IMG/VR virus record: IMGVR_UViG_3300020442_000271
Span: 1 to 31,903 of that record
Source: a virus
Strand: one strand, 5' to 3'
Length of the DNA stretch: 31,903 nt
In this document: positions 1,031 to 29,993 of the stretch, in pieces
Layout: each line of letters starts with the position of its first letter
Numbering within the stretch: position 1 is the first letter of the stretch
Position numbers and translations under genes: made by a program
Notes under the pieces: generated by a model
The model's input: the letters and a program-made list of their open reading frames with translations, nothing else
What the model was told of the DNA's origin: nothing
The model's database searches: none

Positions 1031-1060
1031 AAAATTGTATACACAATTTTCCCTTAATAT
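1031..1060 (+). promoter_or_regulatory. Early hairpin element A (copy inside the G-depleted tract)
   Basis: Arms AAAATTGT and ACAATTTT (1031-1038 and 1043-1050) pair perfectly about the loop ATAC, and are followed by CCCTTAATAT. This matches the architecture of the copies at 1721, 2253, 2581 and 8805: 8-bp stem, ATWC loop, then (A)CCTTAATAT. It lies 137 nt before the ATG of the G-avoiding ORF, unlike the other copies, which lie within about 40 nt of a gene start. Role inferred: promoter for a phage RNA polymerase, or leader RNA hairpin. Confidence 0.6.
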
Positions 1061-1186
1061 ATATATATTTTTATACATTTATAATCATATCAAAAAATCC
1101 CTATATTAATATATATATATTACCTTTCTTTTAACATCAACAAATAAAATATATTACATCTAATAAATTAATATATATACAATCAA

Positions 1187-1534
1187 ATGAGTACATATCA
1201 TTATAATCCTAATAATCCAATTTATAATTCTCAACAATTATTAAATTTATATCATTTCTTTAACCATCCACAAAATAACCAATTATTAATTAATAAAACA
1301 TTTTCTTTAAATTACACATTAATTAATACTAAAACTAACGTTATTCATACTCAATTTCATAAACATATTAATTCTTTTCTTAATATACAACCTACACCTA
1401 ATAATCCAAATAACGTTAATCAAACTATTAATCAATCACTACCTTTAAATCAACCACAAAATAATTTAAATACTCCACCTCAAACACCAGAATCACCTTT
1501 AACTACTCCTGATTCTAATACTTCTACATTTTAA
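1187..1534 (+). CDS. G-avoiding ORF for an Asn/Gln/Pro/Thr-rich protein (115 aa), unknown function
   Basis: The ORF has just six G bases, none at a synonymous third position. Its product therefore lacks Ala, Gly, Arg, Cys and Trp, and 25 of 115 residues are Asn. Two observations argue that it is translated. First, it stays open although TAA should be common at this composition. Second, of its 72 C bases only six are in third codon positions, the three-base pattern expected of coding DNA in an AT-rich genome. Against it, there is no Shine-Dalgarno, which a G-free leader cannot have, so initiation would be leaderless-like or by AT-rich context. The C-terminal third is Pro/Asn/Thr-rich and probably disordered. 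An intrinsic terminator follows 13 nt after the stop. No family recognised. Confidence 0.55.
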   Translation: MSTYHYNPNNPIYNSQQLLNLYHFFNHPQNNQLLINKTFSLNYTLINTKTNVIHTQFHKHINSFLNIQPTPNNPNNVNQTINQSLPLNQPQNNLNTPPQTPESPLTTPDSNTSTF

Positions 1535-1546
1535 ATTATTTCCTCA

Positions 1547-1597
1547 AAGAGTGCATTATACTAATCCTATAGTGCACTCTTACTTTATTTTTTTATC
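1547..1597 (+). terminator. Intrinsic terminator after the G-avoiding ORF
   Basis: Two 14-nt arms (AAGAGTGCATTATA at 1547-1560 and TATAGTGCACTCTT at 1568-1581) pair fully, with one G-T wobble, about a 7-nt loop. A T-rich run (CTTTATTTTTTTATC) follows directly. This is a classic Rho-independent terminator for plus-strand transcription. There is no T run on the other side, so it should not stop minus-strand transcripts. It isolates the G-poor unit from the downstream early operon. Confidence 0.85.
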
Positions 1598-1625
1598 TTC
1601 GACCGTATTGCTTTAAGAGAACCGA

Positions 1626-1718
1626 GCTGTAAAAAACCGACGACCGGGGACCGGGGCCGTCTTGGGATGGGCATTGGGTGATCCGTGTGGCCACCGAGGC
1701 GTCCATAATGCCACCGCC
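1626..1718. other. GC-rich structured noncoding island
   Basis: This stretch is strikingly GC-rich between AT-rich flanks and has no convincing ORF. It contains a tandem 7-bp repeat ACCGGGG (1643-1649 and 1650-1656) framed by GACG (1639-1642) and CGTC (1658-1661). A long-range stem pairs GGCATT (1670-1675) with AATGCC (1707-1712), and enclosed GGTG (1677-1680) can pair with CACC (1692-1695). This looks like a folded RNA leader or a protein-binding site. It lies between the terminator and the hairpin element in front of the first early gene. It matches no riboswitch I recognise. A packaging or terminus site is an alternative. Confidence 0.45.
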
Positions 1719-1720
1719 AT

Positions 1721-1756
1721 AAAATTATATTCATAATTTTCCTTCAATATAAACCA
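1721..1756 (+). promoter_or_regulatory. Early hairpin element B
   Basis: Arms AAAATTAT (1721-1728) and ATAATTTT (1733-1740) flank the loop ATTC, followed by CCTTCAATATAAACCA and then the GAAAGG ribosome site of the gene at 1773. The 3' flank is nearly the same as in element C at 2253. Conserved loop and flank with a palindromic stem support a functional promoter or leader element. Confidence 0.7.
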
Positions 1757-1772
1757 ACGAAAGGTAAACGTA

Positions 1773-2162
1773 ATGTATAAGATGAAAGAAACGCTAGACG
1801 GCACTGGCTATGCCATCGCTGAACAGCTTGTTAGAACCCTGATGTTTAATGAGGATAAGGTGTTACGTACTGTAAACGAAATATCCGATGTTATAAACAA
1901 AGTGTATAGTCCTCAAACCTCGCCTAGTGGTGTAGAGACCTTTGTAACATACCATTATAAAGAATGGTTAAACCATTTTGTAATGATGCATGGTATGATT
2001 GGCGATAAAGAACGCCAGAGATTAACCTGGGGTCATGAAGAGCATTTTACTGAAGAAGACTTCCGTGAGATGTGTCCTGATTATTGGAGTGTTGCACGTG
2101 CCTATGAGGACTTTGAAGAGTACCAAGAGTTCCGTGATGCACGTAATGGACGTAATGTATAG
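1773..2162 (+). CDS. Early protein of unknown function (129 aa), acidic C-terminal half
   Basis: This is the first gene of the rightward arm, directly behind a hairpin element, so it is probably made very early in infection. The ATG at 1773 has a ribosome site AAAGG with 8-nt spacing; a second ATG at 1782 is less well placed. The N-terminal half is amphipathic helical (...YAIAEQLVRTLMFNEDK...). The C-terminal half is rich in Glu, Asp and aromatic residues (EEHFTEEDF, YEDFEEYQEF). T7-like phages often place host-takeover proteins here, including acidic DNA mimics such as Ocr, and position and charge would fit such a role. There is no sequence similarity I can name, so function is open. Confidence 0.8.
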   Translation: MYKMKETLDGTGYAIAEQLVRTLMFNEDKVLRTVNEISDVINKVYSPQTSPSGVETFVTYHYKEWLNHFVMMHGMIGDKERQRLTWGHEEHFTEEDFREMCPDYWSVARAYEDFEEYQEFRDARNGRNV

Positions 2163-2181
2163 AGTCGTTGGTGTGGTCCAT

Positions 2182-2208
2182 CCTGTCCCCTATTAGAGAG
2201 GGGGCAGG
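2182..2208 (+). terminator. Strong hairpin after the first early gene, possible terminator or processing site
   Basis: CCTGTCCCCT (2182-2191) pairs with AGGGGGCAGG (2199-2208) over 10 bp with one G-T wobble and a 7-nt loop. The sequence after it (GCGGGCTTT) has only a short T run, so it may be a weak or factor-assisted terminator, or an RNA stabiliser or processing site. It lies 20 nt after the stop at 2162 and before the next hairpin element. Confidence 0.5.
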
Positions 2209-2228
2209 GCGGGCTTTAAACACCTATA

Positions 2229-2250
2229 TACCGTATAAAGATACCGTATA
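2229..2250. repeat. Direct repeat TACCGTATA with 13-bp period
   Basis: TACCGTATA occurs at 2229-2237 and again at 2242-2250, starts 13 bp apart. The pair ends two bases before the arms of hairpin element C. Tandem sites just upstream of a promoter-like element could bind a regulator or be part of the promoter, but no other copy was noticed. Confidence 0.45.
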
Positions 2251-2252
2251 GA

Positions 2253-2288
2253 AAAATTATATACATAATTTTACCTTAATATAAACCA
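2253..2288 (+). promoter_or_regulatory. Early hairpin element C
   Basis: Arms AAAATTAT (2253-2260) and ATAATTTT (2265-2272) flank the loop ATAC, followed by ACCTTAATATAAACCA and then GAAAG ahead of the ATG at 2304. It shares stem and 3' flank with element B, and loop and ACCTTAATA with the whole family. Confidence 0.7.
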
Positions 2289-2303
2289 TAGAAAGATATT
2301 GCC

Positions 2304-2453
2304 ATGTTTAAGTTCTTTGATTTAATGTTAGCGATACTAGACGTCGTTAACGCTTTGCTTATAGCAGTTTCTCTGCTTATGCTTGTGATCTTCTTACCGT
2401 CTATCTTAGAAGTCATAGTTCCCTTCATTCAAACCGTTATGAGGCCAATATGA
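2304..2453 (+). CDS. Small hydrophobic membrane protein (49 aa)
   Basis: The product MFKFFDLMLAILDVVN... continues with a long hydrophobic stretch (LLIAVSLLMLVIFLPSILEVIVPFI) able to span the membrane once or, with a turn at Pro, form a hairpin. The ATG follows the GAAAG site of hairpin element C. The stop overlaps the next start (ATGA), so the two are translationally coupled. Too short for a family call. As an early membrane protein it could act on the host envelope or block superinfection; both are guesses. Confidence 0.7.
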   Translation: MFKFFDLMLAILDVVNALLIAVSLLMLVIFLPSILEVIVPFIQTVMRPI

Positions 2454-2581
2454 AACATGAAGAAATATTTGACTACGTACTTGCCGTGTATAATGTAGCA
2501 TTAGGAGTAGATGAGATTATAGATATAGTCTCTAATGACCTTAATGTAGACCATTATGTAACCAACAAGTACACCTCATAG
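2450..2581 (+). CDS. Small acidic protein (43 aa), unknown
   Basis: The product starts MKHEEIFDYVLAVYNVALG and ends VDHYVTNKYTS. It is acidic and probably helical. The start overlaps the preceding stop (ATGA), and the stop TAG overlaps the first base of hairpin element D, so it closes the small early cluster ahead of the ssDNA-binding protein gene. No known family recognised. Coding status rests on tight coupling and sensible composition. Confidence 0.65.
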   Translation: MKHEEIFDYVLAVYNVALGVDEIIDIVSNDLNVDHYVTNKYTS

Positions 2582-2610
2582 GCGCGATATTCATCGCGCT
2601 ACCTTAATAA
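2581..2610 (+). promoter_or_regulatory. Early hairpin element D (GC-rich stem)
   Basis: GGCGCGAT (2581-2588) pairs with ATCGCGCT (2593-2600), with a G-T wobble at the base, about the loop ATTC, followed by ACCTTAATAA. The stem sequence is unrelated to elements A-C but has equal length, loop and 3' flank, so structure is conserved rather than sequence. The ssDNA-binding protein start lies 24 nt further on. Confidence 0.72.
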
Positions 2611-2633
2611 CTTTAACCTAAAGGAGAAATATA

Positions 2634-3125
2634 GTGAGTACATATCCTCGTTCTATAATCGTAAAAGATCTTACAGCTAAGTTTTGTCGTATCTCTGGTA
2701 CTGACGCACCTGTTAACCCATTTGGTAGTAAGCAGTGGGAAATGGTGATACAAACCTCTGACCCGGCTAAAGTCCAAGAGCTTAAAGATTATGGTCTTAA
2801 TGTAAAGCAAGATAAAGATGATCCTGCTACGTTTAATGTAAACCTTAAGCGTAAAGGCATTAAGGCCGATGGTAATCCTAACGCACCAGTTAAGATTGTC
2901 GATACAAAGCTGCAACCAATGGATGGCAATAACATAGGTAATGGTACCAAAGTTAATGTCAACTTGTGGCAGTATGAGTATGAAGCACCTGGTAGAAAAG
3001 GTGTTGCCACCTCATTGACTGCAGTGCAGGTAGTTGAGCTTAAAGAGTATACACCAACAGCGGGCTTTGAGGCCATTGAGTCTGTTGATGCTGCCGATGT
3101 AAGCAAAGAAGCACCTGTATTCTGA
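2634..3125 (+). CDS. ssb: Probable ssDNA-binding protein (gp2.5-like role)
   Basis: 163 aa starting at GTG with a good ribosome site (AAAGGAG, 9 nt before). The beta-rich sequence, with WEMVIQTSDPAKVQEL near residues 36-50 and the basic NVNLKRKGIKADG region, resembles phage OB-fold ssDNA-binding proteins. The end (ESVDAADVSKEAPVF) is acidic with a terminal Phe, as in T7 gp2.5, where the acidic tail contacts polymerase and helicase. Gene position early in the replication arm and its own hairpin element fit high expression. Family assignment is by overall character, so moderate. If a virion RNA polymerase is at work, an SSB may also help expose hairpin promoters, as host SSB does for N4. Confidence 0.68.
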   Translation: MSTYPRSIIVKDLTAKFCRISGTDAPVNPFGSKQWEMVIQTSDPAKVQELKDYGLNVKQDKDDPATFNVNLKRKGIKADGNPNAPVKIVDTKLQPMDGNNIGNGTKVNVNLWQYEYEAPGRKGVATSLTAVQVVELKEYTPTAGFEAIESVDAADVSKEAPVF

Positions 3126-3133
3126 TGCACCTC

Positions 3134-3161
3134 GAGTCTCGCGCCGTAAGGCGCGGGGCTC
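3134..3161 (+). terminator. 12-bp hairpin with GTAA tetraloop after the ssb gene
   Basis: GAGTCTCGCGCC (3134-3145) pairs along its full length with GGCGCGGGGCTC (3150-3161), two positions being G-T wobbles, closed by GTAA, a GNRA-class tetraloop. Only a weak T-rich stretch (AAGTTATTCTT) follows. It begins 8 nt after the ssb stop. It may attenuate transcription, so that more ssb mRNA is made than downstream mRNA, or protect the mRNA 3' end. Confidence 0.6.
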
Positions 3162-3183
3162 AAGTTATTCTTGGAGTAAACCG

Positions 3184-3255
3184 ATGTCATTATCATTTTA
3201 TATAGTGTTAGCCATAGCTATTGGCGGACTTATAATCTTAGAAGAAAGGTCGTAA
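3184..3255 (+). CDS. Tiny membrane peptide (23 aa)
   Basis: MSLSFYIVLAIAIGGLIILEERS is one predicted transmembrane helix with a short charged tail. A ribosome site (TTGGAG) lies 7 nt before the ATG. The stop overlaps the next start (TAATG). Function unknown; the tandem arrangement with a second peptide of the same type suggests a pair that may act together in the membrane. Confidence 0.55.
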   Translation: MSLSFYIVLAIAIGGLIILEERS

Positions 3256-3320
3256 TGTTAACAATAATAACCGTACTAGTATTTGCATTTATCGTATGGA
3301 TAGGTGCCCGTCTATATTAA
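3255..3320 (+). CDS. Tiny membrane peptide (21 aa)
   Basis: MLTIITVLVFAFIVWIGARLY is almost entirely one hydrophobic helix ending in an Arg-containing tail. The start overlaps the stop of the preceding 23-aa membrane peptide, so the two are probably coupled. The next gene has its own ribosome site (TAAGGAG) that overlaps this stop. Too short for family assignment; coding status is inferred from coupling and composition. Confidence 0.5.
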   Translation: MLTIITVLVFAFIVWIGARLY

Positions 3321-3330
3321 GGAGAATCTA

Positions 3331-3588
3331 ATGACAGTAGCAAAAGACTTTATGACAATTGATGAACTAATAGTAAACAGCCCACCGCATTACAAGCAGG
3401 GCGATGTTGAGTGTATTGAGGCTATAAAAGCAGCAACCGGCGACGGGTACCAGGGCTATCTGCAAGGTAACATCATGAAGTATATATGGCGTTATCGAGC
3501 TAAAGGTCAAGCGATAAATGACCTTAAAAAAGCAGAGTGGTATCTTAAAGAACTAATTGTTGATGAACAGAAGAGACAAGCCCAATGA
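3331..3588 (+). CDS. DUF3310 protein (T7 gp1.7 family)
   Basis: 85 aa. The ATG at 3331 is chosen over an upstream in-frame ATG at 3304 because AAGGAG lies 6 nt before it. The segment HYKQGDVECIEAIKA through NIMKYIWRYRAKG and DLKKAEWYLKEL is the hallmark of DUF3310. In T7, gp1.7 of this family acts as a nucleotide kinase on dTMP and dGMP and affects sensitivity to dideoxynucleotides. The DUF3310 core makes up nearly the whole protein here, so it is a minimal version. It belongs to the nucleotide-metabolism part of the early arm. Activity is inferred from the family. Confidence 0.85.
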   Translation: MTVAKDFMTIDELIVNSPPHYKQGDVECIEAIKAATGDGYQGYLQGNIMKYIWRYRAKGQAINDLKKAEWYLKELIVDEQKRQAQ

Positions 3589-3824
3589 TATATGCAACAA
3601 TAATCATGTGTCATTTAGCCATAAAAGGTCCTGAGTGCTTACTGTTATCAGACAACCGAGGACCGTATACCGCAATAGAGCATTGCATATCTCGCATGAA
3701 TCAAATGCATGAAGATGCTCTAAAGGTATTGCCTAAATATAAATTAGCAGAAACCAATTGTATATCAGAAAGGGGAGGTAAGTATGGAAGTAAAAGATTC
3801 CCAAGCTCAACGCATTCCGTATAA
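3585..3824 (+). CDS. Hypothetical protein (79 aa)
   Basis: The start overlaps the preceding stop (ATGA). The N-terminus (MIYATIIMCHLAIKGPECLLL) is mildly hydrophobic with Cys residues, and a second Cys lies in EHCISRM. The last 13 codons overlap the start of the next gene in another frame, so its C-terminus (GGKYGSKRFPSSTHSV) is probably little constrained. No family recognised. A small secreted or cytosolic accessory protein is possible. Confidence 0.6.
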   Translation: MIYATIIMCHLAIKGPECLLLSDNRGPYTAIEHCISRMNQMHEDALKVLPKYKLAETNCISERGGKYGSKRFPSSTHSV

Positions 3825-3978
3825 AGCTATGTCATACCCAGTAGATGAGTTCGGTAGATTAGGTGGGTTGTTTAGCCTAGTTGATTTACCTGTAGCCAAG
3901 TATGTAAAGTACCAAGACCTGAGTGAAGAAGACCAAAAGAAAGTAATTGAATCACCAATGTGGAGGGATCATGCCTAG
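3784..3978 (+). CDS. Hypothetical protein (64 aa)
   Basis: A strong ribosome site (GGGGAGG, spacing about 5) precedes the ATG, inside the end of the previous gene. The product MEVKDSQAQRIPYKAMSYPVD... ends with an acidic helix (DLSEEDQKKVIESPMW). The stop region overlaps the next start by 8 nt. No known family recognised. Strong initiation signal and coupling support a real gene. Confidence 0.7.
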   Translation: MEVKDSQAQRIPYKAMSYPVDEFGRLGGLFSLVDLPVAKYVKYQDLSEEDQKKVIESPMWRDHA

Positions 3979-4183
3979 AAACCTTACCAAAACCTATAAG
4001 AAAGAATGTTTTAAGTTCCTTGATAGCCTCAGAGAAAGTGGCGAGATGAATATGTTTGGAGCTTGTACGTATCTAGTAGATGATTTTAACCTTGATAAGA
4101 AAGATGCAGTATCCTGCCTACAAGAATGGATGAATAATAAACGAGAAGAAAAACTGCAAGAAGACTTTGAATTAGCTAATTAG
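3971..4183 (+). CDS. Hypothetical protein (70 aa), probably small helical
   Basis: The ATG at 3971 is preferred over an in-frame ATG at 3947 because GGAGGG lies 4 nt before it. The product MPRNLTKTYKKECFKFLDSL... is helical, with a middle segment (ACTYLVDDFNLDKKDAVSCLQEWM) that resembles a small winged- or helix-turn-helix-like fold. A DNA-binding role is therefore possible but not demonstrable. It ends 12 nt before the next start, whose ribosome site (TAGGAG) overlaps this stop. Confidence 0.7.
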   Translation: MPRNLTKTYKKECFKFLDSLRESGEMNMFGACTYLVDDFNLDKKDAVSCLQEWMNNKREEKLQEDFELAN

Positions 4184-4195
4184 GAGAATAGCAAC

Positions 4196-4513
4196 ATGAA
4201 AAAAGCAACAACAGCAATACATAGAGTAACCAAAGAAAGATTCCCAATGAGCGGTTATAAGTTTACTGTAACAAACCGAAATGATCCTGCTATTGTAGAG
4301 TTAAAGAGAAACGTAAAGCTTATGAACAGTGAAAGGGGTTGGGGAACCAAAATGAGAGTAAGACTAATGGGTCGTGGTCCAAGAACTATGTGGGCTAGAT
4401 TAGAAGGTAGACATCCAAGAGCTTATGATTGTTACCTACCATTAGATAAAGCCACTCATTATGATGTATATGTAAATGATGTACCAAGCTATTACGCTAA
4501 CAAAGGTGTATAA
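4196..4513 (+). CDS. Basic hypothetical protein (105 aa)
   Basis: A clear ribosome site (TAGGAG) lies 9 nt before the ATG. The product is strongly basic, with the cluster MRVRLMGRGPRTMWARLEGRHPR near residues 52-74, followed by a Tyr-rich end. Such charge suggests nucleic-acid or ribosome binding, though no motif is recognised. The stop overlaps the next ATG (TAATG). Confidence 0.72.
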   Translation: MKKATTAIHRVTKERFPMSGYKFTVTNRNDPAIVELKRNVKLMNSERGWGTKMRVRLMGRGPRTMWARLEGRHPRAYDCYLPLDKATHYDVYVNDVPSYYANKGV

Positions 4514-4608
4514 TGATTGAGCTTATATTATATAGTTTCGCAGGTGGTGCAGCATTAGCATACATCATATGGTATTTAGCAAACGCATTAGCTAGATACT
4601 ACGAATAG
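4513..4608 (+). CDS. Small single-span membrane protein (31 aa)
   Basis: MIELILYSFAGGAALAYIIWYLANALARYYE has one hydrophobic helix of about 20 residues with a GG-containing core and a polar Arg-Tyr-Glu tail. The start overlaps the upstream stop (TAATG). It is the last gene before the tRNA region. One of several tiny membrane proteins in the early arm; role unknown. Confidence 0.6.
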   Translation: MIELILYSFAGGAALAYIIWYLANALARYYE

Positions 4609-4750
4609 AACAAAGAATACTCGCCCAGTAATTGACAGGTGTAATCGGCTGTCATCACGCCTTCTTAGCACAAGAGGACATAACGTATAATGTGACACAA
4701 GTAGTAAGATACTTTAGGGTTTATCTGGTGTGGCGACCAGACGAGTTTAC
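4609..4750 (+). other. Gene-free leader ahead of tRNA-Trp with hairpins
   Basis: These 142 nt hold no ORF. Visible structures are GACAG...CTGTC with a 10-nt loop (around 4634-4653) and TCTGGT-GTGGCG-ACCAGA (4724-4741), which ends 9 nt before the tRNA. A TATAAT at 4686-4691 could be a host-type -10 box, with only a weak -35 (TTCTTA at 4662). An isolated TTGACA at 4632 has no matching -10. The stretch could hold a promoter for the tRNA, a processing signal, or a small RNA. Confidence 0.4.
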
Positions 4751-4824
4751 AAGAGTTTAGTGTAATGGTAACACGCTAAGTTCCAACCTTAGAAATGTGG
4801 GTTCGATTCCTACAACTCTTGCCA
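4751..4824 (+). tRNA. trnW: tRNA-Trp (anticodon CCA), CCA end encoded
   Basis: A full cloverleaf can be drawn. Acceptor arms AAGAGTT (4751-4757) and AACTCTT (4814-4820) pair perfectly. The D stem is GTGT/ACAC with loop AATGGTA. The anticodon stem CTAAG/CTTAG encloses loop TTCCAAC, giving anticodon CCA at 4783-4785, which reads UGG. The T stem GTGGG/CCTAC has one G-T pair and loop TTCGATT. Discriminator G4821 is followed by an encoded CCA. It is the only tRNA seen. It may support translation of Trp-rich phage proteins, or compensate for damage to host tRNA. Confidence 0.93.
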
Positions 4825-4840
4825 AATAATGGAGAATGTT

Positions 4841-5086
4841 ATGAGTGTAGACAATACAACGACACAAGAAAATGATAAGCATGTATTTGTTAAACCTGAC
4901 GGCGGAGAGATCCACTGCTATGGTAGCGTAGAATGGGATAGTAATTTCCAATTATGCTGTGATGATGAGGAGTTCGATGGAGTGGCAGTAGATATTGACG
5001 GCGAAAAGTATAATACATGGGATAAAGTTTGTCAATATGTAATTGAAAACTACCGTGCAGATATAGAGGAGATCACGGCAGTATGA
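4841..5086 (+). CDS. Acidic hypothetical protein (81 aa)
   Basis: The ATG at 4841 is chosen because GGAG lies 6 nt upstream; an in-frame ATG at 4829 overlaps that site and has none of its own. The product is acidic (CCDDEEFDG, DIDGEKYNTWD) with a Cys pair and an expected beta-rich first half. It ends with an amphipathic helix (VCQYVIENYRADIEEI). The stop overlaps the next start (ATGA). It lies just behind the tRNA gene, with 16 nt between. No family recognised. Confidence 0.72.
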   Translation: MSVDNTTTQENDKHVFVKPDGGEIHCYGSVEWDSNFQLCCDDEEFDGVAVDIDGEKYNTWDKVCQYVIENYRADIEEITAV

Positions 5087-5307
5087 CAAACCCAACTATA
5101 AAAATACATGACCGTATTATGCAGACCGTAGTAGAGTTAACAGAAGAAGAACATGATCCATTTGCGGTGGCGGGCTGTTTGCTCGCCATTGCTATCTTTG
5201 TATACCGATCTGAAAAAATGGAATGGAACACGATTAGTAACCTGTTATCTGAATGCGTTAAACAAAGTGTTATATCCGAAGGCATAGTAAAGGAGACCTT
5301 ACATTGA
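5083..5307 (+). CDS. Hypothetical protein (74 aa) with a hydrophobic central helix
   Basis: The product begins MTNPTIKIHDRIMQTVVEL and has a central HDPFAVAGCLLAIAIFVYRS segment that could be a buried helix or a short membrane span, followed by an amphipathic helix (WNTISNLLSECVKQSV). It overlaps both neighbours by 4 nt: ATGA at the start and TTGA at the end. No family recognised. Coupled to the DUF1599-like gene, so it may work in the same nucleotide-related process. Confidence 0.7.
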   Translation: MTNPTIKIHDRIMQTVVELTEEEHDPFAVAGCLLAIAIFVYRSEKMEWNTISNLLSECVKQSVISEGIVKETLH

Positions 5308-5588
5308 AGAAAGAAACCTATTTATACGATGCAATAAAAGTACTAGAAGAATGTACAGAGTTAATGATTAAGAAAGGTAAAGACTATCAAGGTGGTTCCG
5401 TATGTGATGATGACTATTACCCACATGGGTGGAAGTCATTTGATAGTATGTTAACAACTAAGATACTACGATTTAGATCTGTTATGGAACAACAAGGCGA
5501 TGTAAACTATGATACAGCCGATGATTGTCTTAGAGATCTAATTAATTATGCAGCACGTTGTGTTGTATGGCTTAACAGGAATAAATGA
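5304..5588 (+). CDS. DUF1599/Nmad1-like protein (nucleotide-modification associated)
   Basis: 94 aa from a TTG start, with AAGGAG 8 nt upstream and an overlap with the previous stop (TTGA). The pattern KKGKDYQGG, then a long gap, then MLTTKILRFRSVM, then DCLRDLINYAARCVVWL resembles DUF1599, also described as a nucleotide modification associated domain. That family is found in phages next to enzymes that alter DNA bases. Its stop overlaps the start of the thymidylate-synthase-like gene, so the pair is almost certainly co-translated. The match is by pattern only, hence moderate confidence. It could instead be a divergent MazG-type all-alpha protein. Confidence 0.6.
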   Translation: MKKETYLYDAIKVLEECTELMIKKGKDYQGGSVCDDDYYPHGWKSFDSMLTTKILRFRSVMEQQGDVNYDTADDCLRDLINYAARCVVWLNRNK

Positions 5589-6289
5589 TGACTAACACAG
5601 TAAAAGATATACGCACAACATTTATTGATATGTATCGAGACAAAGAGATACAGCCTGATGGTAATCTTGAAATCATAGGTGCTAGCTTTTTAGCAACTGA
5701 ACCGACAATATTTGGTAAACCGAATCGTGAATATCAAGAAGCTGAGGTCAGATGGTATGATACACTCAGCTTAAATCTTAAGGAGTTAGAGAAAGAATAT
5801 GGAAAAGTACCAGTCATTTGGAAAGAGCATGCGGCGAATAGTAAAGGCGACATTAATTCTAATTATGGCTATCTCGTGTATAGCGCTCTTAACGGAACTC
5901 AATATGAATATGTACTTCAAGAGCTAAAGCAAAACCCAAATTCACGTAGAGCTACAATGGTGTATACTAATCCTAGTATGCACACCCAATACAGAGAGCA
6001 CGGTAAGAACGATTTTGTTTGTACTAATGCAGTAACATATTACATCAAAAATAAATTAATACATGCTGTAGTACAGATGAGATCTAATGATGCTGTGTTT
6101 GGCTACATAAATGATTTGTTTTGGCAACGCACCGTCTTGCGTAGACTGTGTAAAGATCTTGGATACGAAGAAGGTCAGATAGTATGGCAAGCTCAGAGCT
6201 TACATGTGTACCCAAGACATTTTCATTTGATTGATGATTATCATTACTCAGTACCAGTTGATTACGAAATGGGAGCATACGATGACTAA
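5585..6289 (+). CDS. Thymidylate synthase / dCMP hydroxymethylase family enzyme
   Basis: 234 aa. Landmarks of the family fall at almost exactly the E. coli ThyA numbers when counted from the ATG at 5585: paired Arg 121-122, catalytic Cys146 (FVCTN), Arg166-Ser167 and Asp169 (MRSND), and His207-x-Tyr209 (SLHVYP). The residue equivalent to Asn177, which in thymidylate synthase contacts the uracil ring, is Asp177 here (INDLFW). Asp at this place is characteristic of dCMP-using relatives, and the Asn-to-Asp change converts thymidylate synthase to a dCMP methylase. The likely product is therefore 5-hydroxymethyl- or methyl-dCMP, though dUMP use cannot be excluded. It is translationally coupled to the DUF1599-like gene upstream. 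Confidence 0.85.
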   Translation: MMTNTVKDIRTTFIDMYRDKEIQPDGNLEIIGASFLATEPTIFGKPNREYQEAEVRWYDTLSLNLKELEKEYGKVPVIWKEHAANSKGDINSNYGYLVYSALNGTQYEYVLQELKQNPNSRRATMVYTNPSMHTQYREHGKNDFVCTNAVTYYIKNKLIHAVVQMRSNDAVFGYINDLFWQRTVLRRLCKDLGYEEGQIVWQAQSLHVYPRHFHLIDDYHYSVPVDYEMGAYDD

Positions 6290-6728
6290 TAACTTATTAA
6301 AGTTTCCAGCTATAAGAATGGCTTTTAAACAAACGACCGATGCGTTAGATAACCTAGCTCAAGAAGCAACTAAATGTAGTAGCCATGAGGTAGCTGAAGC
6401 TTACAGAACTGCATTTAGTTTAGTACGTGAAGGTATAAAGCAAGCTGAAAACTTAGGTGAATCTAAACTACAAAAACAAATTGCAGATGCAATGGAGGAA
6501 GTATTAACTGAAAGACATATACTACTAAAAGAACAAGCTGAAAAAACTAGAAACCTAGTTGATAGAAGATACGATGCAGCATGTACTGATCTTGCAACCG
6601 ATCTAATAAATAAATTAAAAGAGCTTAAGGTTTCTAAAGAAACTTTAAATGATAATGTAACCGAATTATATGAAGCTGCTGCTTACCATGTAAGTAAGTA
6701 TTATGAAGAGAAAGGTATTGATGCATGA
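6282..6728 (+). CDS. Helical hypothetical protein (148 aa)
   Basis: The ATG at 6282 is preferred to an in-frame ATG at 6231 because it has GGGAG at a 6-nt distance and gives the usual short overlap (8 nt) with the previous stop. The sequence is almost all alpha-helical with heptad-like stretches (AEAYRTAFSLVREGIKQAEN, LQKQIADAMEEVLTERHILL), so a coiled-coil or helical bundle is expected. No enzyme motif is visible. Its place behind the base-synthesis gene may be incidental. Stop overlaps next start (ATGA). Confidence 0.72.
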   Translation: MTNNLLKFPAIRMAFKQTTDALDNLAQEATKCSSHEVAEAYRTAFSLVREGIKQAENLGESKLQKQIADAMEEVLTERHILLKEQAEKTRNLVDRRYDAACTDLATDLINKLKELKVSKETLNDNVTELYEAAAYHVSKYYEEKGIDA

Positions 6729-6946
6729 GTGATGATGTAAAAGAACAAGCATTAAAGCAAGCACAAGAAGCGTATGGATTGTTTATTTGGTTTATTAAAT
6801 GGTTTAGTTACATAATGATATTTTTAATTATCTTAATGTTTATGAACAACTGGTTTGATGATGGTACAGGCAGCATGTTTATGCCAGATGAAATATATGA
6901 AGACCAGTACGATCCACAAGGACTAAACAAAAGGAAGGGAATATGA
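6725..6946 (+). CDS. Single-span membrane protein (73 aa)
   Basis: A polar N-terminus (MSDDVKEQALKQAQEAYG) is followed by an aromatic, strongly hydrophobic segment (LFIWFIKWFSYIMIFLIILM, about residues 19-38) and an acidic tail (MPDEIYEDQYDPQG). This gives one membrane helix and a charged outer or inner domain. It overlaps both neighbours by 4 nt and begins a run of three membrane proteins up to 7258. Lysis, superinfection exclusion or membrane takeover are possible roles; none is proven. Confidence 0.7.
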   Translation: MSDDVKEQALKQAQEAYGLFIWFIKWFSYIMIFLIILMFMNNWFDDGTGSMFMPDEIYEDQYDPQGLNKRKGI

Positions 6947-7170
6947 AACCATATCATAATGAAGGATTTGGTTGGGCTTTCTTCTGGGTGGTAATGCTAA
7001 TGTTAGTGTTACCACTTGCAGGCCTAATGACTATAGACGATACATGGGATAGACTAGTAACAAAGTATACAGACCCATGGAAGTCTGACTGTTGGGAAAC
7101 CGCTAAACACGAGAGAGTTTGTCGAGATAATAATCAATGTAAATGGTTTAGGAATTTTTGTCATGACTGA
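6943..7170 (+). CDS. Membrane-anchored Cys-rich small protein (75 aa)
   Basis: An N-terminal membrane segment (WAFFWVVMLMLVLPLAGLM, about residues 11-29) carries a C-terminal polar domain with four Cys within 24 residues (DCWETAKHERVC...QCKWFRNFC). Paired Cys outside the cytoplasm usually form disulfides, so the domain probably faces the periplasm; metal binding is the alternative. The ATGA overlap links it to the previous membrane protein gene. No family recognised. Such proteins are candidates for superinfection exclusion or lysis control. Confidence 0.7.
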   Translation: MKPYHNEGFGWAFFWVVMLMLVLPLAGLMTIDDTWDRLVTKYTDPWKSDCWETAKHERVCRDNNQCKWFRNFCHD

Positions 7171-7258
7171 AGGAAAAGCATTGTTACTTACTATGGCAAT
7201 TTGCATAGTAGGAACCTTAATATTAAACGCAATAGTATATGGAGTTATAAATGGCTAA
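7163..7258 (+). CDS. Small single-span membrane protein (31 aa)
   Basis: MTEGKALLLTMAICIVGTLI continues with LNAIVYGVING, giving one transmembrane helix. It overlaps the upstream gene by 8 nt and the downstream methyltransferase gene by 8 nt. It fills what would otherwise be an 80-nt gap in a tightly packed operon, which supports its reality. Function unknown. Confidence 0.6.
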   Translation: MTEGKALLLTMAICIVGTLILNAIVYGVING

Positions 7259-8090
7259 CGCAAGAGGAAAAGAAATAGATAATACGCATTTAAGTATAGA
7301 CCAAGCAGAAGCTAGAGGCTTTATACATAGAGATTATATAGCTCACTGCTTACGATGGACTAAGATAGCTAAGGATCTAAACCTTGGTGGTAAGTATAAA
7401 GAAGCCGACATAATAGATGTAGGCTGTGGTAAAGATATGCCGTTAGCTAGAATGCTAATGACAAATCGTATGGCACCAAGAAGCTATGTAGGTATTGAGT
7501 ATAATAAAATGGAAATGCCACATATGTTTGATAACACTACATTTCAGCCACATCTAATAGACAATGTAGACTTTACACAAACCGACATAATGGAAGATAG
7601 TTTTAATGTTAGTGTTTGTCTTGAAGTGCTTGAGCATGTTGAACCGACAAAGGCAATAGCGATTTTAGATAAGCTAGCTGATGTAGTAGTGCAAGGTGGC
7701 ACATGTTACTTTTCAACACCATGTTATGATGAAAAGGTAGGAGCAGCTAAGAACCACGTAAATGAAATGACTTATCGAGCATTTGGTGCTTTGTTAGAAG
7801 CAAGAGGCTTTCAAATAATAGATCATTATGGTACGTTTGCTTCACAAAAAGACTACAAGCATGAGCTTGACGGTAACACAAAGTACCTGTATACAAAGCT
7901 TAGCGAGTACTACGATACAAACTACCTTGCAACTATCTTTGCACCGTTATATCCTAGTATGTCAAGAAACGTATTATGGAAATGTATTAATACACAAAGC
8001 AAAGACTTTAATAAAAGATTTCCGCCTATTAAAGAGATAGGTGGTAGATTAGGATCTTCTGAAAAAGCCGATGACTTAAGATATGCGTGA
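7251..8090 (+). CDS. Class I SAM-dependent methyltransferase (279 aa)
   Basis: The SAM-binding glycine motif (IIDVGCGKD, residues 54-62) is followed by the acidic ribose-binding residue (YVGIEYN, Glu83) and by CLEVLEHVEP, typical of Methyltransf_23-type proteins. The second half (GFQIIDHYG...) is family-like but gives no substrate. There is no DPPY- or PC-type catalytic motif as in DNA adenine or cytosine methylases, so a small molecule, tRNA or hypermodified base is more likely than direct DNA methylation. The start has GGAG at 7 nt. Its stop overlaps the next gene start. It could belong with the nearby base-synthesis genes. Confidence 0.82.
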   Translation: MANARGKEIDNTHLSIDQAEARGFIHRDYIAHCLRWTKIAKDLNLGGKYKEADIIDVGCGKDMPLARMLMTNRMAPRSYVGIEYNKMEMPHMFDNTTFQPHLIDNVDFTQTDIMEDSFNVSVCLEVLEHVEPTKAIAILDKLADVVVQGGTCYFSTPCYDEKVGAAKNHVNEMTYRAFGALLEARGFQIIDHYGTFASQKDYKHELDGNTKYLYTKLSEYYDTNYLATIFAPLYPSMSRNVLWKCINTQSKDFNKRFPPIKEIGGRLGSSEKADDLRYA

Positions 8091-8631
8091 GCCAGAAAGA
8101 TACTATGACTGGATGCTATGGAAATTAAAACAGGAGAAAGATATGAATGCTAAATGGTCTAAAGTAAGTAGCGATACTGACTGGCCTAAAAATATTAGAG
8201 ACATGCACCTCAAATTCGGGGTGCATGATTGGGTTAAAAGAAAACTACAAGAAAAAGATTACTATTCTTTACACGAGTTTCTACAATTTCGTTTAAGGTT
8301 CCTTGATGAAGAACTGCATGAGACTAAAGAAGCAGTAAAGTACCGACATGCAGATGATATTGTAGACGGCTTGATAGACTTGTGCGTAATCGCGATAGGT
8401 ACGCTAGACATACTACAAGTTGATGCGCACACTGCTTGGCACAGAGTACATAGGTCTAATATGAGTAAAAAGGTAGGTCAAAAAGAATCAAGACCTAATA
8501 CTTTAGGTTTACCCGACATGATTAAGCCGGAAGACTGGGTTGAACCTGATCATACAAACAACACCGGCATTACTCACTATTTCTTAAGAAAGGATTACGT
8601 CGATGACGAACCAGACTATGAGCAAAAGTAG
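8083..8631 (+). CDS. MazG-like nucleotide pyrophosphohydrolase (182 aa)
   Basis: The core FLDEELHETKEAVKYRHADD followed by IVDGLIDLCVIAIGTLDILQ has the acidic helix pairs (EExxE and DxxxD) of the all-alpha NTP pyrophosphohydrolase superfamily, and AWHRVHRSNMSKK is a typical phage MazG-like end. These enzymes hydrolyse noncanonical or excess (d)NTPs, and some act in alarmone control. The start at 8083 overlaps the methyltransferase stop but has a poor ribosome site. An in-frame ATG at 8143 has AGGAG at 6 nt and would give 162 aa, so both starts are possible. Confidence 0.75.
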   Translation: MREPERYYDWMLWKLKQEKDMNAKWSKVSSDTDWPKNIRDMHLKFGVHDWVKRKLQEKDYYSLHEFLQFRLRFLDEELHETKEAVKYRHADDIVDGLIDLCVIAIGTLDILQVDAHTAWHRVHRSNMSKKVGQKESRPNTLGLPDMIKPEDWVEPDHTNNTGITHYFLRKDYVDDEPDYEQK

Positions 8632-8797
8632 TTTAATTAATCATATCAATAGCTTAAAAATGGAAGTTAAACTACTTACCGACATACAGAAAGTGAGAGC
8701 AAGTGAGAAAAAGCTTGATGCAATTTTAGTTTTCGATACAACTATCGCACTCTTAAATAAACGTATAGAGAAGTATACAGATGAATTAAATAAATAA
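8603..8797 (+). CDS. Small coiled-coil-like protein (64 aa)
   Basis: A fully helical small protein (SLINHINSLKMEVKLLTDIQ..., ending IALLNKRIEKYTDELNK) with heptad-like spacing of Leu and Ile, suggesting a coiled-coil dimer. The start overlaps the end of the MazG-like gene by 29 nt, with AAAGGA 9 nt upstream; an internal ATG at 8618 is an alternative. It lies directly before hairpin element E. Function unknown. Confidence 0.65.
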   Translation: MTNQTMSKSSLINHINSLKMEVKLLTDIQKVRASEKKLDAILVFDTTIALLNKRIEKYTDELNK

Positions 8798-8804
8798 CCT
8801 AAGG

Positions 8805-8847
8805 AGCGCGGTATACACCGCGCTACCTAAATATAATCAATGAAAGG
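8805..8847 (+). promoter_or_regulatory. Early hairpin element E, leader of the DNA polymerase gene
   Basis: AGCGCGGT (8805-8812) and ACCGCGCT (8817-8824) form a perfect 8-bp stem about the loop ATAC, followed by ACCTAAATATAATCA and the AAAGG ribosome site of the polymerase. Stem sequence differs from all other copies while length, loop and flank agree. It separates the upstream cluster from the replication core, so it probably starts a second transcription unit or stabilises its mRNA. Confidence 0.72.
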
Positions 8848-14298: not shown

Positions 14299-14711
14299 GA
14301 GAGAATACTAATGAAGTTATTAGGTATCCTGAAGATATGTATTGTGTTTACTTTCATCAAGACCCAGAGACTGATGAGGTAATTTACGTAGGTAAAGGTA
14401 CATTACATCGAGCTTATCAAATTACAAACCGTAGTTATGACCATCACGTATGGTTACTAGATAAGCTTGATAACTACAAGATACAAGATATTGTTAAGAT
14501 AAAAGGCGGTCAAATGACCGACAAAGAAGCTACTATTGTAGAAGCTCATGAAATAAAATGTTGCCTAAGAAAGGGATCTGACTTACTTAATGTAGCTCAG
14601 AATCCTTTTCGCAAAACAAGGAGAATGAATGCAGAATATAATAGATTATCTGGAGCAGAAGATACTAAGCACACCTCAAAGGTGGGCAGTGAAGCTAGTA
14701 CTCGAGCATGA
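14280..14711 (+). CDS. GIY-YIG-type nuclease-like protein (143 aa)
   Basis: The catalytic module can be traced: YCVYFHQDPETDEVIYVGKG gives the two Tyr elements (residues 21-25 and 36-38), Arg44 follows (TLHRA), then a Glu (VEAHEI) and a final LLN. This is the GIY-YIG order. GGAGG lies 7 nt before the ATG. The remaining tail (SGAEDTKHTSKVGSEASTRA) is overprinted by the RNA polymerase start and is probably unconstrained. It lacks an added DNA-binding domain of large homing endonucleases and there is no visible intron, so it may be a stand-alone nuclease for host DNA degradation or gene exclusion. Confidence 0.7.
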   Translation: MRNIEIRENTNEVIRYPEDMYCVYFHQDPETDEVIYVGKGTLHRAYQITNRSYDHHVWLLDKLDNYKIQDIVKIKGGQMTDKEATIVEAHEIKCCLRKGSDLLNVAQNPFRKTRRMNAEYNRLSGAEDTKHTSKVGSEASTRA

Positions 14712-16992
14712 GTTACAGCCTAAACAACTAGTATATGATGCATTAACTATATTACAATATCACTTTAGAAAAACATCTACGTCTGAGTCAGCTACGTGTA
14801 AACTTACTGCAGCTTCAGTTGCAATAGGTAAAAACGTACTACTCAGGCAAGGTGTAGAGCTAGGATTTAGAGCCGACGTAACAGTCGGCGACCTAGTTCT
14901 AGAAGGTTTCTATGAATGTGGTTACATAAAAATATTTAGAGCTCCTACCGAAGCGCAAATCGAGTGGGAGAAAAACCCGGTAGGTAAAAAGCCATTTAGC
15001 CGGGCACCGTATATGATTGAAACATCAGATAAGTGGTTACAAATAGGATCATTACCGTCTGATGTAGTCAACGACTTAATACAAAATACATCATTTACTA
15101 AAATTAATCGTGTCCATCATTTGTTTCAGGAAAACGGACATCCTGTTATTAAGCATTGGGGATATGATAAGGACCAAGATTTCAAGGATCTGTTAGATCA
15201 ACCATTTGTTAATGCAATAAACAAGCTGCAACGAACAGCATGGACTATTGATAACGACATCTTGGAAGCAGTAAAGAAAAACAAACGTAAGTTTGTAACT
15301 GAAAACCTAAAGGTATCAGATGAGACCGGTAAGAACTACCGTTACTGCATTTTTGGTAACAACGATGAGTTACAAGGCAAAGACTTATACTGGAATAATA
15401 CCGTCTTTAAACCAGAGTTAGGCAATAAGTCTTTGGAAAAGAAATATTACAGCGAGTTACGACGTTTAACTAACAAGCTACGTAATAAGCCTAACAAAAA
15501 GCTATTGGAAAAAGCTCAGGCTAAGTATGATGAAGCTGCTACTCACTGGAATGCTAAGTTAGTATTACTTAAAAACCGTAGTAAGTTTGATGCATACAAC
15601 ATGACTATACAAAAAGCCGAAGCATTAAAGGATAAAGTCTTCTTTCAGTATGTAGATGCAGACTATCGTGGCAGGCTATACTACCGTGAGTCATATCTAA
15701 ACTATCAAGGTAAAGATATGGAGCGTGGTCTACTCAAATTTGCTAATGCAAAACCGATGACTGAAGAAGGTTTATATTACTTTGCTGTACATACGGCTTG
15801 TACGTACAACCAATCTTATACTATCGATAACATACCTGACTGGTGTGAAGCTGATTACAAGTCACATCTCGAAGATGAAGGACTTACAGACATATCAGTC
15901 GACAAAATGACTATCGATGATAGGGTAAAATGGGTAATTCATAATGAAGATTTCATTAGAAATACCTGGAATAACCGTACTATACACGATAAAGCAGAAA
16001 AAGGCGTAAGCTTTCTTGCTTGTTGTAAAGCGTGGTGTGGTTTATGGGATCAAAAAGAGGAAAATGGTGTATATCACTTAAGCCTACCTATTCCTATTGA
16101 TGGTTCTAATAATGGTTGGCAACACCTTGCTGCTATATCTAAGGATAAAAAGGCAGGTGAGCTAGTAGGTTTAGTAAAAACTGATATACCCAAGGACTTT
16201 TATGTGCAAACAGCTAAAGCATTGATATCTCGCGTGCCTGAGTGGTTCGCGCAGAGAGACATGCCTATGAAACACATAAGGAAAGGTATATCGAAACGCG
16301 GAGCGATGACTAGAGCGTACTCTGCGGGCCACCTAGCCATAGCTTTGAACATGTATGCTGACTGTTATGCTGAAGGATACCATAGTAAGTACAATATTAC
16401 TATGAGCGACTGTACCGACTTGTCATATAACTTGATAAAAGCTATAGATGAGGTGTGTCCAGGTCCGCTTGAGACTATGAGTTACCTACAGTCAATAGCA
16501 AATCACATAATATCTGACTTGAAAGAGCCAGTTGTCGAATGGACTACGCCTTCCGGCTTCCCAGTACGTTATGAAAACTACGTAATGGAAGACGTAAAGT
16601 GGAAAAGCTGGATCTCTGATATGAGGATACAACACGTAGGCAAAGAACATAGGCTAGTGTATGGTAAAAAGATACCTAGTCCTGGTGGCTTTGCATCAGG
16701 TATAAGCCCTAACTTCATACATAGTATGGATGCGGCTCATATGGCACTCATTATCCATTATTGGGACGGTGACTTTGCCGCGATTCATGATTCATTTTCT
16801 ACTCACGCTTGTGATGTAGCTAGCTTATTAAGTTTAACTAAAGAAGTGTTCATTAAAATGTACAATCATAAGGATTTCTACAAGGATATAGCTGAAATGC
16901 TATTGCTAGAACCTGAAAACTTTAATTATAACTATAAACTAGGGGAATTAGATGTAGAAGCTATACAAGATAGCGACTACTTCTTTTCGTAA
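14629..16992 (+). CDS. T7-like single-subunit RNA polymerase (787 aa)
   Basis: Motifs in order: DADYRGRLYY (Arg347 and Arg349 region, equal to the T7 GR motif), motif A PIPIDGSNNGWQHL (Asp491), motif B KGISKRGAMTRAYS (Lys556, Tyr564), promoter-specificity loop region around DMRIQHVGKEHRLVYGKK (665-681), SPNFIHSMDAAHM, motif C AAIHDSFST (His720, Asp721), and an aromatic C-terminus (DYFFS) like the T7 foot. T7 Gly640 is Ser565. The N-terminal domain is about 100 residues shorter than in T7 (883 aa). The start has AAGGAG at 5 nt. It should transcribe phage middle or late genes. It stands at the end of the replication arm, unlike T7, where it is an early first-end gene. Confidence 0.95.
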   Translation: MQNIIDYLEQKILSTPQRWAVKLVLEHELQPKQLVYDALTILQYHFRKTSTSESATCKLTAASVAIGKNVLLRQGVELGFRADVTVGDLVLEGFYECGYIKIFRAPTEAQIEWEKNPVGKKPFSRAPYMIETSDKWLQIGSLPSDVVNDLIQNTSFTKINRVHHLFQENGHPVIKHWGYDKDQDFKDLLDQPFVNAINKLQRTAWTIDNDILEAVKKNKRKFVTENLKVSDETGKNYRYCIFGNNDELQGKDLYWNNTVFKPELGNKSLEKKYYSELRRLTNKLRNKPNKKLLEKAQAKYDEAATHWNAKLVLLKNRSKFDAYNMTIQKAEALKDKVFFQYVDADYRGRLYYRESYLNYQGKDMERGLLKFANAKPMTEEGLYYFAVHTACTYNQSYTIDNIPDWCEADYKSHLEDEGLTDISVDKMTIDDRVKWVIHNEDFIRNTWNNRTIHDKAEKGVSFLACCKAWCGLWDQKEENGVYHLSLPIPIDGSNNGWQHLAAISKDKKAGELVGLVKTDIPKDFYVQTAKALISRVPEWFAQRDMPMKHIRKGISKRGAMTRAYSAGHLAIALNMYADCYAEGYHSKYNITMSDCTDLSYNLIKAIDEVCPGPLETMSYLQSIANHIISDLKEPVVEWTTPSGFPVRYENYVMEDVKWKSWISDMRIQHVGKEHRLVYGKKIPSPGGFASGISPNFIHSMDAAHMALIIHYWDGDFAAIHDSFSTHACDVASLLSLTKEVFIKMYNHKDFYKDIAEMLLLEPENFNYNYKLGELDVEAIQDSDYFFS

Positions 16993-16994
16993 TC

Positions 16995-17177
16995 ATGAAG
17001 TTCACTGAAAAATCAGATGGTGTAATCGGTATAAACGAGGAAGATATAGCCTTGATATACAAGTACGGCATAATCTTTTTAGATGGAACAGAAATACAAT
17101 GTTCACAAACTAAAATAAAAAGATACATGCAAGACAACGATCTACACCATCTATATTGCCACGATATATGTGGCTAA
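16995..17177 (+). CDS. Small hypothetical protein (60 aa), last gene of the rightward arm
   Basis: The product MKFTEKSDGVIGINEEDIAL continues to IYKYGIIFLDGTEIQCSQTK and ends with two Cys and His (LYCHDICG). It follows the RNA polymerase stop by 2 nt but lacks a clear Shine-Dalgarno, so it relies on reinitiation. Its stop TAA (17175-17177) overlaps the stop TAG (17174-17176) of the opposing virion gene. No family recognised. Confidence 0.6.
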   Translation: MKFTEKSDGVIGINEEDIALIYKYGIIFLDGTEIQCSQTKIKRYMQDNDLHHLYCHDICG

Positions 17178-21121: not shown

Positions 21122-21122
21122 A

Positions 21123-25172: not shown

Positions 25173-25182
25173 TATGTTATCC

Positions 25183-28730: not shown

Positions 28731-28731
28731 A

Positions 28732-29445: not shown

Positions 29446-29993
29446 TTTCCGCCTCCTGTTTGTGTAGTAGTGGTTTGTTGTGGAGCATTCTTAAACAACC
29501 CAAATACTCTTTCAGCACTTAAGTCAGGGGCATCAAGTAATTGTTGCTTGTATTGTTGTCTCACACCTCCTACTTGACCTAATAAATCAGCGCCTAGCGT
29601 AGCAGTTTGTTGTCTGTCTTTTGCAAACTCTAACGATCTGTCGGCTAATGCTTGATTTATAGCAGCCTGAGATCTAGCAGAACCTAGCATACCACCAGTA
29701 GATGCTTGTCCCATACTACTACCTAGTATACCTTTTAAGTCTGCTTCTCTAGCTGCAGCAGTATCAAAAATACCCGTACCTGCCATCATATCTTGAGCAT
29801 ACGCTTCAGAAGCTGCCAATGCATCCTTTTGGCCTTGTGTCATTTCAGCTATCATAGACTCAGGACCTGCCTCAACTCTTTGCTCGTATCTAGCAGCTGC
29901 GTCAGCTAATACTGGTTTGATATACGGAAGAAACTCGTCGGCTATACCAGACGTAGCTACTTGTGAAACGTCTCCTCCTCCTCCACTTCCCAT
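29442..29993 (-). CDS. Probable internal virion protein (183 aa)
   Basis: Opening MGSGGGGDVSQVATSGIADEF is followed by an Ala-rich helical body (YIKPVLADAAARYEQRVEAG, AINQALADRSLEFAKDRQQT) and a Gly/Gln/Thr tail. Proteins of this kind, small, Ala- and Gln-rich, lie at the gp14 position of many podoviruses and are ejected first. A ribosome site (TAGGAG) overlaps the stop of the preceding gene. No enzymatic motif. Assignment is by character and order. Confidence 0.72.
   Translation of the reverse strand: MGSGGGGDVSQVATSGIADEFLPYIKPVLADAAARYEQRVEAGPESMIAEMTQGQKDALAASEAYAQDMMAGTGIFDTAAAREADLKGILGSSMGQASTGGMLGSARSQAAINQALADRSLEFAKDRQQTATLGADLLGQVGGVRQQYKQQLLDAPDLSAERVFGLFKNAPQQTTTTQTGGGK

Follow-up and report, generated by a model that had tools for sequence, protein, structure and literature searches.

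Hairpin elements upstream of the early genes

The sequence studied here, positions 1-31,903 of IMG/VR virus record IMGVR_UViG_3300020442_000271 (31.9 kb, hereafter the window), comes from a relative of Roseobacter phage CRP-7 (58.1 kb). It carries five hairpin elements, candidate early promoters, on the plus strand ahead of early genes, and it has two genes for RNA polymerases (RNAPs): an ordinary T7-like RNAP on the plus strand and, on the minus strand at 17174..21121, a predicted single-subunit enzyme of the type of the virion RNAP (vRNAP) of phage N4.

Element 1 (1031..1050) reads AAAATTGT-ATAC-ACAATTTT, then CCCTTAATATATATA, has a covariance-model match of 44.1 bits and precedes a guanine-free unit and the open reading frame (ORF) 1187-1534, 137 nt upstream of the latter. 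Element 2 (1721..1740; AAAATTAT-ATTC-ATAATTTT, then CCTTCAATATAAACC) and element 3 (2253..2272; AAAATTAT-ATAC-ATAATTTT, then ACCTTAATATAAACC) stand 32 nt and 31 nt upstream of ORF 1773 and ORF 2304, respectively. Element 4 (2581..2600) reads GGCGCGAT-ATTC-ATCGCGCT, then ACCTTAATAAC; from the end of its 7-bp stem it is 34 nt to the gene of a gp2.5-like single-stranded DNA-binding protein (SSB; 2634-3125). Element 5 (8805..8824; AGCGCGGT-ATAC-ACCGCGCT, then ACCTAAATATAATC) lies 30 nt upstream of the DNA polymerase gene (8855-10696, its start read as 8855). Elements 2 to 5 are matched by the covariance model too, and the distance to the start codon is 30-34 nt in four of the five cases.

These elements had been claimed at 1031, 1721, 2253, 2581 and 8805 by an original prediction made from the DNA of the window, and all five were found on the plus strand at exactly these coordinates. 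All have an ATAC or ATTC loop with a T-A closing pair and, directly 3' of the hairpin, an (A)CCTTAATATA-like box (1051..1065, 1741-1755, 2273-2287, 2601-2615 and 8825-8839), as the prediction had it. Its 8-bp inverted repeats are perfect in four elements only: the stem of element 4 consists of seven Watson-Crick pairs (2582-2599) and an outer G.T. Apart from these five, no inverted repeat of the window combines a loop of 4 nt with a perfect stem of 7 bp or longer. When the sequence was shuffled locally 100 times with dinucleotides kept, such hairpins with ATAC or ATTC loops were found 0.02 times on average and once at most, compared to five in the window; the same search found none on the minus strand. 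The loop was picked for this test after it had been seen, and relatives provide independent repeats: eight hairpins versus 0.04 in genome G004, six versus 0.06 in G008 and four versus 0.02 in G005. Folding of single-stranded DNA returned the expected hairpin for each element, with z-scores between -2.3 and -5.8 on the plus strand.

The hairpins of the window are not followed by a T-run and are absent as such from the list of intrinsic terminators; T-runs do follow some hairpins of G008 and G005, and these may act as terminators. A scan for sigma-70 promoters returned 29 candidates, with 33.6 expected, and in an Rfam search of the region a tRNA was the sole match.

Loop families and stem covariation in relatives

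With the T7-like RNAP, 37 IMG/VR loci of relatives were retrieved, the long ones of which were read whole or nearly so. Close relatives have hairpins at places homologous to those of the window, as many as eight in one genome. Each genome has one main loop family, and this family differs by genome: ATHC loops are present in the window, L141-146, G008, L171/172 and L076/L084, AYWAR loops (ATAAA, ATTAA, ACAAG, ACTAG) in G001, G004, G005, G009 and G011, AGAA loops in G006 and ATAA loops in G007. Below E = 0.01, covariance models built for the two large families, a search that the original prediction had suggested, keep the genomes apart almost without exception: matches of the ATHC model are confined to ATHC genomes, and the AYWAR model matches AYWAR genomes and one ATTC site in L084 (E = 0.005). 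The matches are on the early strand.

Stem sequences vary widely among the relatives with pairing kept. Both sides of the stem have changed at seven of eight pairs in the ATHC set and at all eight in the AYWAR set, and covariation scores are 0.95 and 1.17, respectively, compared to 0.32 and 0.30 after shuffling; these counts are partly circular, as the members of both sets were selected by pairing. The cleanest test of this kind is the site upstream of the DNA polymerase, which is defined by the gene and not by pairing: a hairpin of at least 7 bp is present in 14 of 19 distinct sequences, with 0.51 expected from shuffles. The claim that structure rather than sequence is selected was thinly based inside the window, which has only two stem classes (AAAATTRT and RGCGCGRT), and gains strong support from the compensated stems of the relatives. 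In the 5-nt loops, positions 2 and 5 covary as well (T..A in 16, C..G in four and mixed in none of 20 distinct copies); G001 holds both kinds.

Other relatives differ in the loop. In L125, of a sister lineage with 48% DNA polymerase identity, there are six plus-strand hairpins with 3-nt loops (GTT/TTC; L125:212-8055), compared to 0.17 expected and none on the minus strand; they are followed by TCCTATAAC-like boxes, and their loops read AAC/GAA on the template strand. The T[AT]CG loops of L166/L167 correspond to CGNA on that strand. In a sister clade at 53%, no clear set of hairpins with 4- or 5-nt loops and stems of at least 7 bp was found; weaker ones of 6 bp are present. In L163 and L170, long AT-rich stems (taaatttt...) with loops similar to TTGGC/TTTG/TTAG stand ahead of AT-rich boxes, possibly another loop code.

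The first transcription unit has an unusual composition in some of these genomes. It is nearly free of G on the plus strand of the window (0% G in 1051-1186 and 1.7% in ORF 1187-1534). A run of 1047 nt without G (L172:767-1813) contains hairpins and a frame that by eye resembles the 115-amino acid protein of the window, and G-free coding runs of 759 nt are found in both L166 and L167 (L167:2315-3356; L166:498-1256), where G occurs mainly in the ribosome-binding site and the start codon. The ATAAA-code genomes G001, G004 and L161 have about 30% G in the first unit.

A predicted virion RNA polymerase

The gene at 17174..21121 (minus strand) is the final gene of the virion cassette and encodes 1315 amino acids, with no cysteine among them. 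Sequence searches of Pfam, PHROG and PDB with this protein gave no direct match, and a pattern search of IMG/VR found no relative of it. In an alignment with 12 relatives, the motifs of the T7 family of RNAPs (T/DxxGR, A, B and C) are present. The T/DxxGR-like region (LQSRMHATQTRFNPQ...; 19316..19384, coordinates derived from the alignment) contains the family pattern RM....RFNPQ, which we take to be comparable to GRVYAVSMFNPQ of T7. Motif A (EVDGITHGPAS; 18725..18757), with the invariant catalytic aspartate, is ExDGxTHGP in the family and EADGVTNGP in N4. In motif B (KKPPMTLAYG; 18401..18430) an invariant lysine and tyrosine are 8 apart, as in T7 and N4; the family has KKPPMTLxYG, N4 has KNPLTITIYG and the sister clade K[LV]PIMTSIYG. 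Just ahead of motif C, at the location of the T7 specificity loop, there is a conserved stretch, GSAxR..GG[WY] (17933..17980), the last position of which is tyrosine in the two ATHC genomes only and tryptophan in the other ten. The motif C region starts with IDGAWM (17879..17896; N4 consensus GDGxMM), and motif C itself (LPIMDA; 17807..17824) has the invariant catalytic aspartate and, as in IFDG of N4, a replaced histidine. All these motifs lie on the minus strand; D681, K783, Y791 and D990 (numbering of the G009 homologue) are invariant across 12 homologues.

Five of the 13 family members match phrog_2206, 'virion RNA polymerase' (best 3.3e-8), and homologues also match phrog_414; the giant proteins of the sister clade have weak matches to PF00940 and phrog_414. 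A permissive tblastn search (E<=10) of 50,697 phage records with the window protein matched 32 records; all 25 of these 32 matches that were listed are N4-like genomes, and the annotated ones are mostly labelled virion RNA polymerase. AlphaFold2 was used to model a homologue (pLDDT 70.8) and the window protein from residue 130 to 1315 (pLDDT 66.9), and both models had the N4 mini-vRNAP as top PDB match in Foldseek (E 1.9e-13 and 2.6e-13), with T7 and mitochondrial RNAPs close behind. A profile hmmsearch against PDB chains returned noise only. The fold family of the protein is secure, the structural details of the models are not, and the data support its assignment as a vRNAP-type single-subunit polymerase, best filed with the N4-type vRNAPs.

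The gene lacks cysteine codons in 12 of 13 genomes and has one in the remaining genome. The N4 vRNAP has no cysteine in 3500 amino acids, and the T7-like RNAP of the window has 12. Lack of cysteine has been suggested to ease the passage of such proteins through tail and periplasm (PMC3715699). From its position in the virion cassette and the absence of cysteine we infer that the enzyme is packaged. The linkage of hairpins and a vRNAP-like gene, part of the original prediction, holds beyond the window: elements without the gene were sought and none were found, as every hairpin-bearing contig that reaches its position (G000, G001, G004, G005, G006, G007, G008 and G009) has it.

The loop code changes with the predicted virion RNA polymerase

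The second polymerase (14629..16992, plus strand; 787 amino acids) is an ordinary T7-like RNAP (PF00940 4.4e-54; phrog_414 6e-103), which the original prediction had not included. It is almost constant between genomes with different loops. The window (ATHC) is 99/98% identical to G001/G009 (AYWAR) in this enzyme, a difference of 10-12 residues, and 96% identical in the DNA polymerase, compared to 46% in the vRNAP. The pair G005 and G008 gives the same picture: identity is 99% in the T7-like RNAP (11 residues differ), 100% in the DNA polymerase, 96% in the primase and 46% in the vRNAP. All hairpins of this pair have switched their loop, with ATAAA in one genome and ATTC/ATCC at each corresponding site of the other, and the hairpin that directly precedes the identical DNA polymerase is no exception. 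G001 and G004, in turn, have a loop family in common, at 88% identity in the T7-like RNAP and 66% in the vRNAP. Because the T7-like RNAP hardly changes while the loops switch, it is not the reader of the code. Judged from these comparisons, loop code and vRNAP diverge together, and the reader of the code is the vRNAP or something exchanged together with it.

A search for promoters of the T7-like RNAP itself identified none, as no 13-mer exceeds three copies in the late regions of these two genomes, G000 and G001. Between the convergent genes of the T7-like RNAP and the vRNAP, L073 (10432-10457) and L200 have a perfect hairpin of 10-11 bp, AAAGGGTACC-AATTAA-GGTACCCTTT, probably a two-way terminator.

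Comparison with known systems

The closest parallel is N4 (Schitoviridae). Its gp50 is, like the window protein, a divergent single-subunit RNAP of the T7 family that is encoded at the end of the virion cassette and free of cysteine, its early promoters P1-P3 have free stems and a fixed loop ahead of early genes, and a second phage RNAP is made early in both phages. N4 promoters start transcription 11 nt from the loop centre and need gyrase and SSB. The loop provides a further link, not part of the original prediction: read on the template strand, ATHC becomes GNAT, which is the GNA triloop of N4 plus a T, and AYWAR becomes YTWRT. The G and the A of the template strand are invariant in 16 distinct ATHC copies and differ in the AYWAR relatives; the terminal T is present in both families. 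In N4, the hairpin of the template strand is recognised and a sheared G:A pair holds the GNA loop (PMC4496689, PMC12633501); the P1 hairpin is GTTGC-GAA-GCAAC (PMC12633501).

There are also clear differences. Proteins of the window family are much smaller (1172-1681 amino acids, with 1179 in G009) than the N4 enzyme with its N-terminal and large C-terminal domains, and identity is about 12%. Stems have 7-9 bp or more and loops 4-5 nt, compared to 5-7 bp and 3 nt in N4, so that the variant code proposed in the original prediction, with a 4-nt loop and a longer stem, was correct; 3-nt loops, closer to N4, occur in the sister lineage L125 only. Unlike in N4, the loop code varies between close relatives. 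N4 and other Schitoviridae have a heterodimeric second polymerase (RNAPII) and genomes of about 70 kb, while the window lineage has the single T7-like chain, and its longest relatives are 56-60 kb with a CRP-7-like gene order. Given these differences in size, loop length, stem length and second RNAP and in the central-purine rule (see below), the phage is outside the Schitoviridae.

CRP-7 (MK613349), the closest cultured relative, has the same gene order, a T7-like RNAP with 33% identity and three giant cysteine-free proteins at the same location as the window. As a relative it is too distant: its gp33 aligns with the vRNAP family at 15-19%, without clear motif A and B residues. The CRP-7 paper mentions the RNA polymerase (gp30) but not promoters (PMC6918029). 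For StenR_269 and Zobellviridae, large cysteine-free virion proteins were proposed as vRNAPs outside the Schitoviridae; the proposal is based on size, helix content and absence of cysteine, and the text does not mention hairpins (PMC10747016). T7, T3 and SP6 resemble the window in having a lineage-specific promoter code that is read by a single-subunit RNAP, but T7-type promoters are double-stranded and have no hairpin, and in the window lineage the T7-like RNAP is nearly constant while the code changes.

A model for early transcription and its alternatives

Very likely, the hairpins are early promoters that are read by a packaged N4-type single-subunit RNAP, the product of 17174-21121; the sequence comparison supports this interpretation, which was that of the original prediction. 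It builds on the computed hairpins, their covariation, the motifs and fold of the polymerase and the joint switching, from which we infer packaging, template-strand recognition, promoter activity, start site and transcription order. The cysteine-free vRNAP would enter the cell with the ejected DNA and recognise the extruded template-strand hairpin from its shape and loop, and possibly also from the foot; any sequence that pairs would serve as stem, with the loop as identity code. Measured with the N4 ruler, transcription would probably start at the 3' foot of the hairpin or immediately behind it, and for four of the five genes the leader would then be about 30 nt long. The vRNAP would transcribe the early plus-strand operons, including SSB, DNA polymerase and T7-like RNAP, and the latter would take over later transcription.

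Several observations weigh against this model. The structure models have moderate confidence (pLDDT 71 and 67) and low TM-scores (0.35-0.45), and a comparison by hhalign with three N4-like vRNAPs gave a weak match only (E 0.0055, probability 6.6%; negative control 0.25). At five of the 19 sites upstream of the DNA polymerase there is no hairpin that reaches 7 bp. The central-purine rule of N4 (-11) fails at three of the five loops of the window: ATAC gives T as template centre at 1031, 2253 and 8805. Neither a hairpin set nor clear polymerase motifs were found in CRP-7, the only cultured relative. The vRNAP is also not the only gene that differs with the code: the virion module of the window (17174-29993) is over its entire length only 32-73% identical to that of G001, with neighbours at 97-99%, which looks like an exchange en bloc, and the first early gene is of a 115-amino acid type in ATHC genomes and of a 122-142-amino acid type in AYWAR genomes. 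Finally, the code is not tied to overall similarity of the vRNAP, since the window and G008 are both ATHC with vRNAPs that are only 34% identical. Their vRNAPs have five unique residues in common at otherwise uniform columns, including the tyrosine for tryptophan ahead of motif C; this is the highest count of 66 pairs, but it was chosen post hoc and is a lead. W522L, N878A and W950Y (G009 numbering) are candidate specificity columns.

Among the alternatives, the best is that the hairpins act in the leader RNA as elements of translation or stability to which an RNA-binding protein binds, each lineage with its own loop; we regard this as improbable. Covarying stems with a conserved loop are typical of RNA-protein recognition, and four of the five hairpins are close to a start codon. 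This spacing, however, is variable, with values up to 119 nt and beyond in relatives, the hairpins have an AT-rich box directly 3' of them, Rfam has no match in the region apart from the tRNA, and no RNA-binding protein that switches with the code was recognised among the window genes. The loops themselves fit DNA hairpins better than RNA leaders: AUNC and AYWAR are no known stable RNA loops, while GNA and YTWR, their template-strand counterparts, are known compact DNA loops, TTTA and CTTG among them.

It is slightly less probable still that the T7-like RNAP is the one that uses the hairpins as promoters. Its gene is present and intact, RNAPs of the T7 family can use hairpin promoters, as the N4 vRNAP does, and single substitutions can alter the promoter specificity of T7 and T3 RNAP. 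Yet only 10-12 of its residues differ across a change of code, compared to 12% within one loop family (G001 and G004). Moreover, all code hairpins stand ahead of early genes of the plus strand, among them those of the operon with the T7-like RNAP gene itself, and the late strand of the window has none. Least probable of all is that the hairpins are double-stranded operators or replication signals for another factor of the exchanged modules. This would suit their near-palindromic form and the fact that other genes, such as the first early one, differ along with the code, but the stem is free and the loop fixed, although a palindromic operator is contacted least at its loop, and promoters better fit the placement on one strand ahead of genes, the maximum of eight copies per genome and the N4-kind polymerase.

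Genome setting

The plus strand of the window carries early and replication genes, including exonuclease, primase-helicase and dCMP deaminase, and the minus strand carries the virion genes with three giant proteins at the end. Next to the vRNAP are a second giant protein (21123..25172, minus strand; phrog_6958 virion structural protein), free of cysteine in 11 genomes, and a third (25183..28035, minus strand) with a transglycosylase (SLT) domain (PF01464 8.4e-7), free of cysteine in nine; both are probable ejection proteins. The early region has a tRNA-Trp (CCA) at 4751-4824. A palindrome (TGGTTAA-AAT-TTAACCA, 867-883) close to where the late genes of the minus strand begin is kept in G001, G004, L166 and L167 with the flank ATTGTTATCTCTA and is a candidate late promoter or operator.

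Implications

In the literature that we searched, N4 and its relatives are the only phages for which hairpin promoters read by a packaged single-subunit RNAP are established, and the system of the window is described neither in the CRP-7 paper (PMC6918029) nor in the others of this set. Taken together, a short packaged N4-type RNAP and genome-wide hairpin promoters probably switch their loop code jointly outside the Schitoviridae, between GNA plus T and YTWR plus T on the template strand in genomes with 96-100% identical DNA polymerase and second RNAP, and the first ATHC promoter probably drives a nearly G-free unit. Sets of loop-coded hairpins together with a giant cysteine-free virion protein would provide a search rule for vRNAPs that domain databases miss, and swaps of enzyme and hairpins could give orthogonal pairs of small polymerases and promoters for laboratory use. 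If true, the strategy of N4 is shared by a further and common marine phage group whose enzyme has a third to half the size, and the natural code switches in near-identical backgrounds would reveal how a polymerase reads the shape and loop of a DNA hairpin.

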